Positions 37,256 through 42,296 of a stretch of 42,453 nt of DNA are shown here, one piece after another (the first letter of the stretch is position 1; each line of letters begins with the position of its first letter). The DNA is from Seleniivibrio woodruffii (GTDB lineage Bacteria > Chrysiogenota > Deferribacteres > Deferribacterales > Geovibrionaceae): NCBI RefSeq assembly GCF_029267515.1, contig NZ_JAJUIS010000014.1:1-42453 (forward strand), read 5' to 3'. Below the pieces are notes generated by a model that was given only the letters and a program-made list of their open reading frames with translations, had not been told where the DNA came from and did no database searches. A program made the translations under genes and the position numbers.

Positions 37256-38467
37256 ATGCATGCTACTTTGCTTAAAAAAGACGTTTACTGGGTCGGTGTA
37301 AAAGACCCTGAGCTTGAGATTTTCGACATAGTTATCCCCACGGAACACGGAACGACATACAACAGCTACCTTGTTGTGGGCAAAGAGAAAACAGCTCTCA
37401 TAGAAGCCTGCAAACTTAATTTTCAGAAGGAATATATCGCCCGTATAGAAGAGATCATGCCAATCAGCAGGATTGATTACGTCATTCTGAACCATAACGA
37501 ACCGGACCACTCCGGCGCTCTGCCGACGCTGCTTGATCTCAACCCCGATATGGAGGTTATCTACTCCAAAACAGCGAAGACCTTCGTTGAAAATATTGTC
37601 AACCGTGACTTCAAAGGAAGAGCCGTCGGTGATGAGGATGTTATAGATCTCGGCGGGAAAACGCTCCGGTTCTTCCATACGCCTTTTCTGCACTGGCCCG
37701 ACACCATGTTCACCTATCTGGTTGAGGACGAAATGCTCTTCCCCTGTGACTTTCTCGGCGCGCACTACTGCCCCAAGGAAGACATACTCCTGAACAGAGA
37801 CATTGAGGAAAAGGAAGTGGCGAAAGAGGCGTTCCGCTTCTATTATTCCATGATAATGCGCCCCTATAAGGAGCATATAACCAAAGCTCTGCAAAAGATT
37901 AATGGGTTAAAAATAGACATGGTCTGCCCTTCACATGGTCCCATACTCGTTGAAGACATCGACTTTTACATGGATTTCTATGAAAAGTCGGCAGCCCGCT
38001 ATTATAAAAACATGACGACCCGTCAGGTTACTCTTGTATACGCAACTGCCTACGGCAACACGAAAAAGCTGGCTGACCAGATACGAGCCGGAATCGAAGA
38101 GGTTGGCGTCCGTGTGGACATGTATGATTCCGCCACAACGGATATAATGACCCTCATCGACTCTATAGAGATATCCCACGGCGTGCTCATCGGCACCCCT
38201 ACCCTTAATGCAAAAGCACCACATCCGGTACTTGAGCTGTTCTCATATTTCGTTGTTCTCAACGTTGTGAACAGGCTTGGCGGCTGTTTCGGTTCATATG
38301 GCTGGAGCGGCGAAGGGGTCAAGGTTTCAGAAGATATAATGAAGACCATGCGGATGAAAACACCTCTGCCCTCGTTCAAAGTTAAGATGACACCATCCGA
38401 ACATGAATTGAGAGATGCTTATCAGTGGGGCAGGGATTTCGGTATGCAGGTTCTGGAAGCTCAGTAA
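37256..38467 (+). CDS. Flavodiiron protein (rubredoxin:oxygen oxidoreductase, class A)
   Basis: This cytosolic enzyme reduces O2 to water (or NO to N2O) with electrons from rubredoxin, protecting anaerobes. The metallo-beta-lactamase-like domain (residues 1-255) carries the di-iron ligands: H80-N-E82-P-D84-H85, then His in PFLHWPDTMFTY, Asp in LFPCDFLGAHY and His in CPSHGPI. The FMN-binding flavodoxin domain (about 260-400) begins VTLVYATAYGNTKKLADQI and has the GSYGWSGEGV loop. At 403 residues it is a class A enzyme without fused rubredoxin. GGAGG precedes the ATG by about 5 bases. A bidirectional terminator follows. Confidence 0.96.
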   Translation: MHATLLKKDVYWVGVKDPELEIFDIVIPTEHGTTYNSYLVVGKEKTALIEACKLNFQKEYIARIEEIMPISRIDYVILNHNEPDHSGALPTLLDLNPDMEVIYSKTAKTFVENIVNRDFKGRAVGDEDVIDLGGKTLRFFHTPFLHWPDTMFTYLVEDEMLFPCDFLGAHYCPKEDILLNRDIEEKEVAKEAFRFYYSMIMRPYKEHITKALQKINGLKIDMVCPSHGPILVEDIDFYMDFYEKSAARYYKNMTTRQVTLVYATAYGNTKKLADQIRAGIEEVGVRVDMYDSATTDIMTLIDSIEISHGVLIGTPTLNAKAPHPVLELFSYFVVLNVVNRLGGCFGSYGWSGEGVKVSEDIMKTMRMKTPLPSFKVKMTPSEHELRDAYQWGRDFGMQVLEAQ

Positions 38468-38486
38468 AATATTCAATCACAAAATT

Positions 38487-38516
38487 AAAGAGGCAGCCAT
38501 GAGGCTGCCTCTTTTT
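38487..38516. terminator. Bidirectional terminator between the flavodiiron and protease genes
   Basis: A perfect twelve-base-pair stem (38487-38498 with 38503-38514, AAAGAGGCAGCC/GGCTGCCTCTTT) with a 4-base loop lies between two convergent genes. T-rich runs lie on the plus side, and a shorter one on the minus side. It should stop transcription from both directions. Confidence 0.9.
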
Positions 38517-38529
38517 ATATCCGAAAGAG

Positions 38530-39528
38530 TTATGCTCTTCTTCTGCGTATCAGGTATATTCCGCCAGCGGTGAACATGAGTATCAGAGCAATTGGCGAAC
38601 CGTCTTTGGATGCGGAACATCCGCCTCCTCCACCGCCGCCTGAATCCACTGTATCTACGTCTGTGTCGGTATCACCGCTATCAGTGCTTCCGCCGTCATC
38701 AGTAGTACCGTTCATCTTTCCGTCTATCCATGACGTATACTGGGAAACTCTGGTATATATTCCGTAATAATTGGGCTGTGCACACTGATATCCGTTACTG
38801 ACTATACCGATTACAATATAGTTTGATCCGTCCTGAACGAACAGAGGACCGCCGCTGTCTCCGGAACAGGAGTCCTTTCCGCCTTCGGCATAGCCCGCAC
38901 AGAGCATGTTATCGGTCATACTGTATCCGGAAACCTCACTGCACGTTGTATTGGAAACAACAGGCAAATCCACCTCCATAAGGTCTGTGGGATAGGTATG
39001 CACGGTGTCAGGATAAGCTGTTGTACCCCAGCCGGCAACTGTTGCCAGTGTGCCCACCGAGAAAGCGGGATAGGTTGTTGAGGAGAGACCGTCTATAGTA
39101 TCCTCAGAAAGAGACGTGCTCAGTTTTAAAAGAGCAATGTCGTTGTTGAAAGTCACGCTGTTATAGCTTTCATGGACGTATACAGCCGACACCCTGACCT
39201 TTGTGCCGCTGGTTGATGCCGTTGTGGAGAGAACGTTCGTTCCCGCCAGCACCCGCAGGTTGCTGATGGCAGTGGCAGTGGTGTAATCCTCCATGCAATG
39301 CGCCGCGGTCAGAACCCAGTCGGCGGCAATGAGCGTTCCCCCGCAAAACTGCTGATTAAGCTCTGTGGCGCCATTTGTCGTATCCAGAATCGCAACAACG
39401 AAAGGATATTCGCCGTCAGTCGCCTCTGTTCCGCCTATAATCTTTCCGGAAACATCTGTGGCGGAAGCAGGAAGAAAAGAAATGAACACAAATCCTGCAA
39501 TTATCAAAATTTTTAATCTGGTAATCAT
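38530..39528 (-). CDS. Exported trypsin-like serine protease (S1) with a C-terminal sorting tail
   Basis: This 332-residue secreted protease has a signal peptide (residues 1-23, ending PASA) and a short propeptide ending before IIGGTEA (K29/I30), the site where S1 zymogens are activated. The catalytic triad is H77 (TAAHC), D130 (NNDIALL) and S225 (GDSGGPL). D219, six residues before the serine, predicts cleavage after Arg or Lys. Paired cysteines (62/78, 196/210 and 221 with one near QC) fit S1 disulfides. The tail is an acidic, Ser/Thr-rich linker, seven Gly and Cys304, a hydrophobic stretch (311-327) and four Arg, the layout of GlyGly-CTERM, JDVT-CTERM or Synerg-CTERM surface-sorting signals. 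Vibrio VesB is a similar known case. No rhombosortase gene is in the window. Confidence 0.93.
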   Translation of the reverse strand: MITRLKILIIAGFVFISFLPASATDVSGKIIGGTEATDGEYPFVVAILDTTNGATELNQQFCGGTLIAADWVLTAAHCMEDYTTATAISNLRVLAGTNVLSTTASTSGTKVRVSAVYVHESYNSVTFNNDIALLKLSTSLSEDTIDGLSSTTYPAFSVGTLATVAGWGTTAYPDTVHTYPTDLMEVDLPVVSNTTCSEVSGYSMTDNMLCAGYAEGGKDSCSGDSGGPLFVQDGSNYIVIGIVSNGYQCAQPNYYGIYTRVSQYTSWIDGKMNGTTDDGGSTDSGDTDTDVDTVDSGGGGGGGCSASKDGSPIALILMFTAGGIYLIRRRRA

Positions 39529-40091: not shown

Positions 40092-40119
40092 TTTGATTCC
40101 TTTTCGGAATCACGAATAT

Positions 40120-40208
40120 GGAGAGGTGTCCGAGTCAGGCTGAAGGAGCACGCCTGGAAAGTGTGTGTACGCTAACACGTACCGAGGGTTCGAATCCCTC
40201 CCTCTCCG
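40120..40208 (+). tRNA. tRNA-Ser (anticodon GGA)
   Basis: An 89-base class II tRNA. The acceptor stem is GGAGAGG (40120-40126) with CCTCTCC (40201-40207) and discriminator G. The anticodon stem CACGC/GTGTG encloses the loop CTGGAAA with anticodon GGA at 40156-40158, reading UCC and UCU. A long variable arm follows (about 40166-40184), then a standard TTCGAAT T-loop. CCA is not encoded and must be added afterwards. Confidence 0.97.
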
Positions 40209-40239
40209 TTTTTGATGCTTTAAAAATAAATATCAGGCT

Positions 40240-40391: not shown

Positions 40392-42296
40392 ATGATCTCC
40401 AAGTTCAGACAACAGAAAAAGATGACAGTTTTTGCCCTTTGGTTTGTGATTGCGGCGTTTGTTGCAACCATTTTCTTCGCATGGGGTATAGGTGACAAGG
40501 TTGCCCAGAGCCACTATGCAATAAAGGTTAACGAGACTGTCATTTCTGACGCTGATTTCAGCCAGAAACTAGACGCAACAAGAGAAAATTTCCGCAGTCT
40601 CTTCGGAAATCAGGTTGACCAGATTATGAAGGACAACCTGTTGGAAAAGACTGTTATGAACGATCTCATCGGTCAGGCGCTCCTCATTGAAGAGGCAAAA
40701 AGACTGAACATCCCCGTTTCCGACGCGGAAGTACAGATGTACATCCAGAACATGCAGTCATTTCAGGTTGACGGCCAGTTCAACATCGAACAATACACTA
40801 ACATTCTTGCAAGAAACAGAATGACTCCGGCAATCTTCGAACAGAAGGTTAAAGAGGACATCACTGCACAGAAAATGACTGAAATGATTAAAAACAGTGT
40901 GTCCGTAACAGACAAAGAAATTGAGATGGAATACAAGTTCCGCAACACTAATGCTGTTATCAACTATATTGAGTTTAACGCTGACGACTTCGCCGGAACT
41001 GTTAAAGTGGATGAAGCCGCTGTCAAAAAATTCTATGATGAAAACAAAGAAGCATACAGAGTCCCAGAAAAAGCAAATTTCATAGCTCTTGTGTTCGACC
41101 CGTCTCTTATGAAAAACATCGACATACCTGTGAGCGATAAAGAAATTGAAGACTATTTCATCAGAAACAAAGCGTCTCTGATACAGCCAGAAAGTGTTAA
41201 AGCATCACACATCCTTTTCAAGGTTGACGACTGGAACAACAAACAGGATGTTGACGCAAAAGAAAAACTTGCCAAAGAAGTGCTCGGCATGGCTAAATCC
41301 GGTGCAGACTTCGCAGAGCTTGCAAAAAAATACTCAGCAGATTCCAGCGGACAGAACGGCGGCGACCTCGGCTATTTCAAAAAAGGTCAGATGGTTCCCC
41401 AGTTCGAAGCTGCCGCTTTCAAACTTAAAAACGGCGAAATCTCAGATATCGTGAAAACCCAGTTCGGTTTCCACATCATCAAAACTGTTGACCACAAAAT
41501 CGAAACCAGCCCCACTCTTGAGCAGGCAAAACCTCAGATAGCCGACCTTATTAAAAAAGAAAAAGGTCAGGCGGCTTTCAAAAGTTTCGTTTTCGACAAA
41601 TATAAAGAGATTGTTGCTGAATCAAACATTACTGCATACAACAAGAAAAACGGTAATAAACTCCCCGTTGTAACTCTTAACGGCATCACCGAAACAGGCG
41701 TTGGAACCCCTCTTGAAGGTAAGCCTGATATGGTGAAAAAACTCATGAGCATGTCCAAAACCGAAGTCAGCCAGATAATGGATTTCGATGATAAAAAAGT
41801 AATCTTCGAAATGACAGACAAATTTCCCTCGTTCATCCCGCCTTTTGATAAAATCAAAGGACTGGTTGAGGGCGAATATAAAGGACAGGCAAATATCAAG
41901 GCTGCTGAAAAAGCTGCCGCTGAGGCTTCAAAACTTGCCTCCATTCAGGACGCGGCTGCAAAAACGGGTAAGACGTTTGTAACACCCAAAGCGTTTAACA
42001 GAAACGAACCTATTGAGAATCTGGGAATGAATAACGATCTTATGGACAGCATATTCAAAGCCAAACCTGGTTCATTCCTTCAAAAGCCATATACGGTGAG
42101 CGGCAAGGTTTTCCTTGTTCAGGTTGTAAGCCTTACACCTCCCGCAACCACTGTAACTCCTGAAATGAAGGACCAGTTGGTTTCAGCGCTGCTGGGCGTC
42201 AAACAGAACGAAGCTGTTAAAGACTATGTTGAATCACTTAAAAAGACAGCGAAAATTGAGGTCAGTCCTCAATACAAACAATTCTACGTTAAGTAA
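40392..42296 (+). CDS. PpiD/SurA-like periplasmic foldase with a parvulin domain
   Basis: This 634-residue protein matches PpiD in layout. A short cytosolic N-terminus (ISKFRQQKK) and one membrane helix (about residues 12-33) are followed by a SurA-type N-terminal chaperone domain (about 35-190) in the periplasm. Next comes a parvulin-type peptidyl-prolyl isomerase domain (about 265-365), with VKASHILFKV, then GGDLGYFKKGQMVPQFEAAAF and QFGFHIIK. The remaining 270 residues are a second helical chaperone-like region. The parvulin domain keeps the conserved His of ASHIL and FHII, so isomerase activity is plausible, although PpiD itself is often inactive. GAGG precedes the ATG by 9 bases. It lies just downstream of SRP RNA, another membrane-protein targeting gene. 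Confidence 0.92.
   Translation: MISKFRQQKKMTVFALWFVIAAFVATIFFAWGIGDKVAQSHYAIKVNETVISDADFSQKLDATRENFRSLFGNQVDQIMKDNLLEKTVMNDLIGQALLIEEAKRLNIPVSDAEVQMYIQNMQSFQVDGQFNIEQYTNILARNRMTPAIFEQKVKEDITAQKMTEMIKNSVSVTDKEIEMEYKFRNTNAVINYIEFNADDFAGTVKVDEAAVKKFYDENKEAYRVPEKANFIALVFDPSLMKNIDIPVSDKEIEDYFIRNKASLIQPESVKASHILFKVDDWNNKQDVDAKEKLAKEVLGMAKSGADFAELAKKYSADSSGQNGGDLGYFKKGQMVPQFEAAAFKLKNGEISDIVKTQFGFHIIKTVDHKIETSPTLEQAKPQIADLIKKEKGQAAFKSFVFDKYKEIVAESNITAYNKKNGNKLPVVTLNGITETGVGTPLEGKPDMVKKLMSMSKTEVSQIMDFDDKKVIFEMTDKFPSFIPPFDKIKGLVEGEYKGQANIKAAEKAAAEASKLASIQDAAAKTGKTFVTPKAFNRNEPIENLGMNNDLMDSIFKAKPGSFLQKPYTVSGKVFLVQVVSLTPPATTVTPEMKDQLVSALLGVKQNEAVKDYVESLKKTAKIEVSPQYKQFYVK

Follow-up and report, generated by a model that had tools for sequence, protein, structure and literature searches.

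A Trypsin-Like Protease with a Predicted JDVT-CTERM Tail in Seleniivibrio woodruffii, and the Gene of Its Putative Peptidase, MrtJ, inside a T2SS Cluster

Introduction

How is a trypsin-like protease sorted when its chain ends in a run of glycines, a lone cysteine, a hydrophobic helix and four arginines, which peptidase would cut such a tail, and where would the mature enzyme reside? These questions are raised by a gene of Seleniivibrio woodruffii that lies in the window, the stretch of 42,453 nucleotides analysed here (contig NZ_JAJUIS010000014.1). An earlier note on this DNA had taken the tail for one handled by rhombosortase or a related peptidase. What stands of that proposal is a tail that reads as a sorting signal, with a matching peptidase, MrtJ, encoded in the same genome; its rhombosortase part does not survive.

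The Protease and Its Tail

The protein encoded by this gene (Table 1) carries the features of a trypsin zymogen ahead of its tail. Pfam gives only trypsin models above cut-off, with Trypsin (PF00089) covering residues 30–268 at an E value of 2.4e-61, and the best solved relatives, judged from the top 60 of 553, fall among the enteropeptidases, the trypsins and proteases akin to them (E as low as 6.9e-47). The S1 triad is complete (His77, Asp130 and Ser225), Asp219 occupies the chymotrypsin-189 position in the S1 pocket, and the zymogen motif IIGG begins at residue 30. The Trypsin domain, the complete triad and the S1-pocket Asp together place the protein among the S1 trypsins, and the triad, Arg/Lys specificity residue and zymogen site that the earlier note had read from the letters are thereby confirmed residue by residue. 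Cysteines occur at residues 62, 78, 196, 210, 221, 249 and 304. All but the last appear to correspond to three conserved disulfides of trypsins, and this assignment leaves Cys304 as the odd one out.

Table 1. Features of the protease gene and its immediate surroundings, in positions of the window.
Feature	Position	Strand	Remarks
S1 trypsin-like protease gene with predicted JDVT-CTERM tail	38530..39528	minus	332 aa, ATG start, stop included
Signal peptide, residues 1–23, without Cys	39460..39528	minus	Read from sequence; cleavage site by eye
Six-residue propeptide, residues 24–29	39442..39459	minus	Activation site Lys29/Ile30; Pfam Trypsin starts at 30
Trypsin domain, residues 30–268	38725..39441	minus	His77, Asp130, Ser225, Asp219
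Linker rich in Asp/Thr/Ser/Gly, 28 residues (269–296)	38641..38724	minus	
Predicted JDVT-CTERM tail, residues 297–332	38533..38640	minus	NF033191 and profiles A3 and A4
Cys304 codon, conserved Cys of the signal, presumed lipidation site	38617..38619	minus	
Hairpin followed by a T run, likely terminator	38488..38516		By eye

The predicted terminator hairpin sits between the protease gene and a convergent gene at 37256–38467. Elsewhere in the window, a tRNA-Ser (GGA) gene at 40119–40209 separates the small gene next to the protease gene from a large one at 40392–42296, whose product resembles PpiD/SurA by eye.

The tail itself is composed of seven glycines (Gly297–303), Cys304, a hydrophobic stretch whose best 19-residue Kyte–Doolittle mean is 1.51, RRRR and a final Ala; the glycines, cysteine, helix and arginines described in the earlier note are all found at their positions. 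The JDVT-CTERM model NF033191 matches residues 299–332 at 29.1 bits, over its curated cut-off of 27 (E 6.5e-7), whereas MYXO-CTERM (TIGR03901) was rejected at 14.6 bits against a cut-off of 20. The score, the Cys motif, the hydrophobic helix and the basic C-terminal end, joined by a cognate MrtJ in the host genome, identify the tail at the sequence level as JDVT-CTERM, a Cys-containing sorting signal, and not as the GlyGly-CTERM signal of VesB.

The Predicted Peptidase

The host genome holds one match to the MrtJ model (NF033192), a protein of 151 residues scoring 83.3–84 bits against a cut-off of 75. It also matches Pfam PF02517 (Rce1-like) at 68.6 bits. The residues E67, E68, R72, F101, H105, H141 and N145 are invariant across 19 aligned MrtJ sequences, drawn from a set of 30 MrtJ loci, and the EExxxR, FxxxH and HxxxN motifs place the protein in the CPBP/Rce1 class. 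Its AlphaFold2 model is helical and confident (mean pLDDT 92.7); a Foldseek search with this model returned no PDB match at E<=0.001, and an hmmsearch with MrtJ matched no PDB chain. The predicted peptidase for the tail is MrtJ, by its motifs a glutamic CPBP/Rce1-type enzyme and intramembrane protease. The host genome also encodes Lgt, a candidate for the lipidating enzyme.

Rhombosortase (TIGR03902) was rejected because the sole rhomboid match in the genome reaches 25.9 bits against a cut-off of 84. That this rhomboid is a rhombosortase all the same, cleaving near the Gly run and leading to a phosphoethanolamine-type attachment as for VesB while MrtJ is unrelated to the tail, is very improbable. 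Such a reading can draw on the presence of one encoded rhomboid, on the Gly-rich tail and on VesB being likewise a trypsin-like protease; it has against it the score just given, the absence of a GlyGly-CTERM model among the five families listed at E<=10, the conservation of the Cys in the tails, and the generality of rhomboids, the family matching in 14 of 14 control genomes.

mrtJ in the T2SS Cluster

The mrtJ of the host immediately precedes gspC, at a distance of 28 bases and on the same strand as gspC-D-E-F (G000:C12). From this mrtJ-gspC-D-E-F run a second one diverges, made up of gspG-H-I-J-K-L-M and ending in a gspN-like gene, with mrtJ between gspC and gspG. Scores exceed the cut-off for GspD and GspG; for GspC, E, F, K, M and the GspN-like protein the matches to their own models stay below it, GspH, I and J match the prepilin motif only, and GspL is named by its place because no model matched it. 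Weak matches give GspC a PDZ-like C-terminus. The GspN-like protein scores 29.2 bits against a cut-off of 140 and 24.3 against one of 50, short of GspN proper, and owes its label to a homologue that closes the gspG-N run of all 18 selected clusters, detected by profile where tblastn missed it. Its structural model has a mean pLDDT of 82.2 and gave no PDB match in Foldseek at E<=0.001; we regard this negative, like those for MrtJ, as uninformative.

The placement of mrtJ recurs across the phylum. Among 50 genomes searched, 35 have MrtJ at E<=1e-10, and all 35 were examined: mrtJ and gspC stand together on one strand in 31, with gaps of −74 to 124 bases, counted by the first possible start, and one of 479. 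The four exceptions all belong to family f6 (4/4): the stretches examined around their mrtJ yielded no gspC, and in G025 and G026 that stretch consists of one short contig. In 7 of the 31 (G010–G012, G028–G031) mrtJ is kept with gspC while GspG is on another contig or more than 100 kb away. In all 18 selected clusters, G048 and G049 from outside the order among them, the mrtJ-gspC-D-E-F run and the gspG run are divergent; L231 and L232 yielded no gspM. That the gene of the predicted tail-cutting enzyme lies inside a T2SS cluster suggests one coupled pathway for surface lipid-anchored proteins. The protease gene and mrtJ are on different contigs, so the published arrangement of client beside mrtJ, which is no part of the models, does not apply here.

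Beyond the phylum, a wider CPBP survey kept 80 loci of 256 candidates. Six of these are named Deferribacterales, Deferribacteraceae or Denitrovibrio, and 4 of the 6 have gsp genes; among the other 74, a gsp-like gene (E<=1e-5) was found in only four (L072, L102, L129 and L140), and some 5 kb separate it from the CPBP gene in L102 and L140. Profiles A3 and A4 detected no tail in the 80 loci at E<=0.05, and found the three known control tails. In the assemblies of L072 (Opitutae) and L129 (Desulfobacteraceae), a longer CPBP protease gene stands near pseudopilin or gspF-like genes. These two loci offer a hint, at the level of gene neighbourhood, that CPBP/T2SS neighbourhoods may extend wider than the phylum.

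Co-occurrence of MrtJ, Tails and GspG

The host order was represented by 45 genomes, of which 33 were MrtJ-positive, that is, over 60 bits; G043 and G044, whose matches reach no more than 37 and 28 bits, were counted as negative. Tails found with A4 at E<=0.02 occur in 28 of 33 MrtJ-positive genomes and in 0 of 12 negative ones (Fisher P 2e-7). Since A4 was built from tails of MrtJ-positive genomes, the fairer figure is that of the public model NF033191 alone at E<=0.01, 17/33 against 0/12 (P 0.0013), or 16/33 against 0/12 (P 0.003) once G025, a non-tail on reading, is removed; because the genomes are related, every Fisher P in this comparison overstates independence and is too small. Tail matches with A4 range from 0 to 5 per MrtJ genome of the order, five of the 33 (G010, G011, G034, G036 and G040) having none at E<=0.02. 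Outside the order, G048 has one tail and G049 none at E<=0.5. Two matches in MrtJ-negative genomes were discarded: one in G002 (NF033191, E 0.076) covers only model positions 15–30, and one in G001 (A3, E 0.0065) looks, on reading, like a membrane protein that lacks the Cys motif.

These counts bear on another reading of the tail, namely that it is an inner-membrane anchor and nothing else, which would tether the protease in the periplasm without cleavage, lipid or export across the outer membrane. A hydrophobic segment followed by RRRR would suffice for stop-transfer. A generic anchor would have no need of Gly-Gly-Cys, yet this triplet is invariant across the 34 aligned tails (two weaker tails outside the alignment, in G033 and G039, have Thr-Gly-Cys), and the tails track MrtJ in the proportions given above; we regard a mere anchor as unlikely.

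Within the order, GspG over its cut-off is likewise associated with MrtJ, in 32 of 33 positive against 6 of 12 negative genomes (Fisher P 0.0007, subject to the same relatedness). MrtJ might be a general housekeeping peptidase of the T2SS, active for example in the processing or quality control of Gsp proteins, with the tailed trypsin an incidental client. Its gene does adjoin gspC also where a genome shows a single tail or none. Against this stand the six order genomes that have GspG over cut-off and lack MrtJ (G009, G041 and G042 among them being less than 90% complete), which suggest that a T2SS can do without MrtJ, and the score of MrtJ over the cut-off of the JDVT-specific model in 25 of the 35 phylum genomes. 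A housekeeping role of this kind appears quite improbable.

The Clients and Their Spread

All 12 genomes of the host family have a homologue of the trypsin, and none of the 33 others of the order does at E<=1e-10. One copy was read in each family genome, and all 12 have the Gly-Gly-Cys tail and the S1-pocket Asp; the copies were selected by GDSGGP, which is a criterion here and not a result. The earlier note had thought such a protease unusual for an anaerobic respiring organism, a view that finds no support in the host family, where all 12 genomes carry the tailed trypsin. Eight other tailed proteins comprise three subtilases, two LRR proteins, two Ig-like proteins (one clear, one weak) and one with a carboxypeptidase-regulatory-like domain, several of them scanned incomplete at the end of a stretch.

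Within the host genome, no second tailed client was found with A4 at E<=0.02. Three weak A3 matches (E 0.38–0.58) do not extend to the profile's Cys end, and NF033191 at E<=10 gives one further match (E 1.65), to a frame of 45 codons that lies among flagellar-type genes; all were rejected. The earlier note had proposed to look in the genome for other proteins with the tail and for a matching sorting peptidase, and would have given up its reading if both were lacking. The outcome is divided: MrtJ is present, and no second tailed protein emerged with NF033191, A3 or A4.

Several details of the relatives deserve mention in their own right. Neighbouring convergent genes encode the tailed trypsin and another tailed protein in G019, G016, G017 and G018 (loci L196; L041 and L055; L043 and L063; L058 and L042); for G016 and G019, Pfam identifies the second protein as a subtilase. 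G021 has two trypsin copies, L197 (G021:C16) and L176 (G021:C7), and the one beside the counterparts of the neighbour genes in the window lies at a contig end, with a broken frame and unread bases. In genus g3 (L182, L184 and L185) Phe, not Lys or Arg, precedes IVGG, so trypsin-type self-activation is not expected at that site. In L038 (G020:C8:114597-117683) a JDVT-type tail near 1495–1611 sits inside a longer open frame and resembles the internal MYXO-CTERM of MXAN_5598 as described in PMC11980579.

A Proposed Pathway

The protein is probably a secreted trypsin destined for display on the cell surface; after entry by Sec we infer lipidation of Cys304, cleavage by MrtJ and export by the T2SS. 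The precursor would cross the inner membrane by Sec and stay held there by its tail. A lipid would be added to Cys304, with Lgt as the candidate enzyme, and MrtJ would cut after Cys304, removing the helix and the Arg cluster. The T2SS would take the folded, C-terminally lipidated zymogen through the outer membrane, perhaps with the help of the GspN-like protein, and the exported zymogen would remain anchored at the outer membrane. Activation would follow by trypsin-type cleavage after Lys29, in the way proposed for VesB. The glycines ahead of Cys304 may mirror the GspN-linked Gly/Ser motif of N-terminal lipoproteins. Weighing against this pathway, the client gene lies apart from mrtJ, and the five MrtJ genomes of the order named above, as well as G049, have no detected tail. 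The four f6 genomes, whose examined stretches yielded no gspC, count against it too, as do the low scores of the GspN-like protein and the lack of specific model matches for GspH, I, J and L.

A more speculative extension, which we hold to be possible and somewhat doubtful, would make MrtJ a built-in part of the T2SS in this phylum: mrtJ would be co-transcribed with gspCDEF, so that cleavage of the Cys tail is coupled to the loading of the client, and the Gly run would double as a GspN-type export signal, the mirror image of that in N-terminal surface lipoproteins on the same route.

The tail family and MrtJ were already known; what is new is the position of mrtJ in a T2SS cluster, before gspC and away from the client. 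Our literature search found no report of mrtJ inside a T2SS cluster, and as its scope excludes Haft 2024 (J Bacteriol, e0017323), we make no claim of priority. The host provides a small system, with one detected client, one peptidase and one T2SS with a GspN-like gene, in which the succession of steps, the lipid and what the Gly run does are open to direct testing.

Comparison with Known Systems

The closest match by family is the JDVT-CTERM/MrtJ system, described in PMC11980579 as a two-gene pair, sporadic in beta- and gamma-proteobacteria. The present case shares with it tail and peptidase models over cut-off, a conserved Cys, a hydrophobic helix and an Arg end. Unlike the published pairs, mrtJ is here part of a T2SS cluster, apart from its client and in another phylum.

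The second comparison is with the MYXO-CTERM/MrtX system of M. xanthus. According to PMC11980579, the MrtX relative there cleaves a Cys tail, for which the Cys is needed; Cys-tail peptidase and T2SS are tied by experiment, the T2SS step itself being a model; surface display is reported as T2SS-dependent; and lipidation is proposed, with Lgt as a candidate. Both systems have a Cys tail and a CPBP glutamic peptidase, and the T2SS-dependent display of Myxococcus corresponds to the one that we infer here. They differ in that the present tail falls below the MYXO-CTERM cut-off, that MrtJ has 151 residues, and that a single tail was detected as against the 35 MYXO-CTERM proteins of M. xanthus (PMC11980579).

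A third parallel concerns GspN, which is needed for the surface lipoproteins InvL and PulA of two T2SSs; T2SS lipoproteins also need a Gly/Ser or Asn/Asp motif beside their lipidated Cys, where Gly/Ser serves as a sorting signal (PMC12802150). As in those systems, the T2SS here comes with a GspN(-like) gene, and Gly stands beside a Cys that is lipidated there and presumed to be lipidated here. The geometry is reversed: InvL and PulA carry the lipid at an N-terminal Cys that Gly follows, whereas the presumed site here is a C-terminal Cys that Gly precedes.

Finally, VesB of V. cholerae, which the earlier note had offered as an example of such tails, is the nearest functional analogue of the protease. 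It is a T2SS-dependent surface protease whose peptidase, RssP, is a rhomboid that exposes a C-terminal Gly (PMC6219818), and its secretion needs the PDZ domain of EpsC (PMC12369372). Both proteins are trypsin-like zymogens with a Gly-rich tripartite tail. As an example of the tail class the comparison fails, since VesB has a GlyGly tail and a rhomboid (PMC6219818) where the protein described here has a Cys tail and a CPBP peptidase, and the Ig-like domain of VesB has no counterpart among the Pfam matches above cut-off of the present protein; as an analogue in function it serves well.
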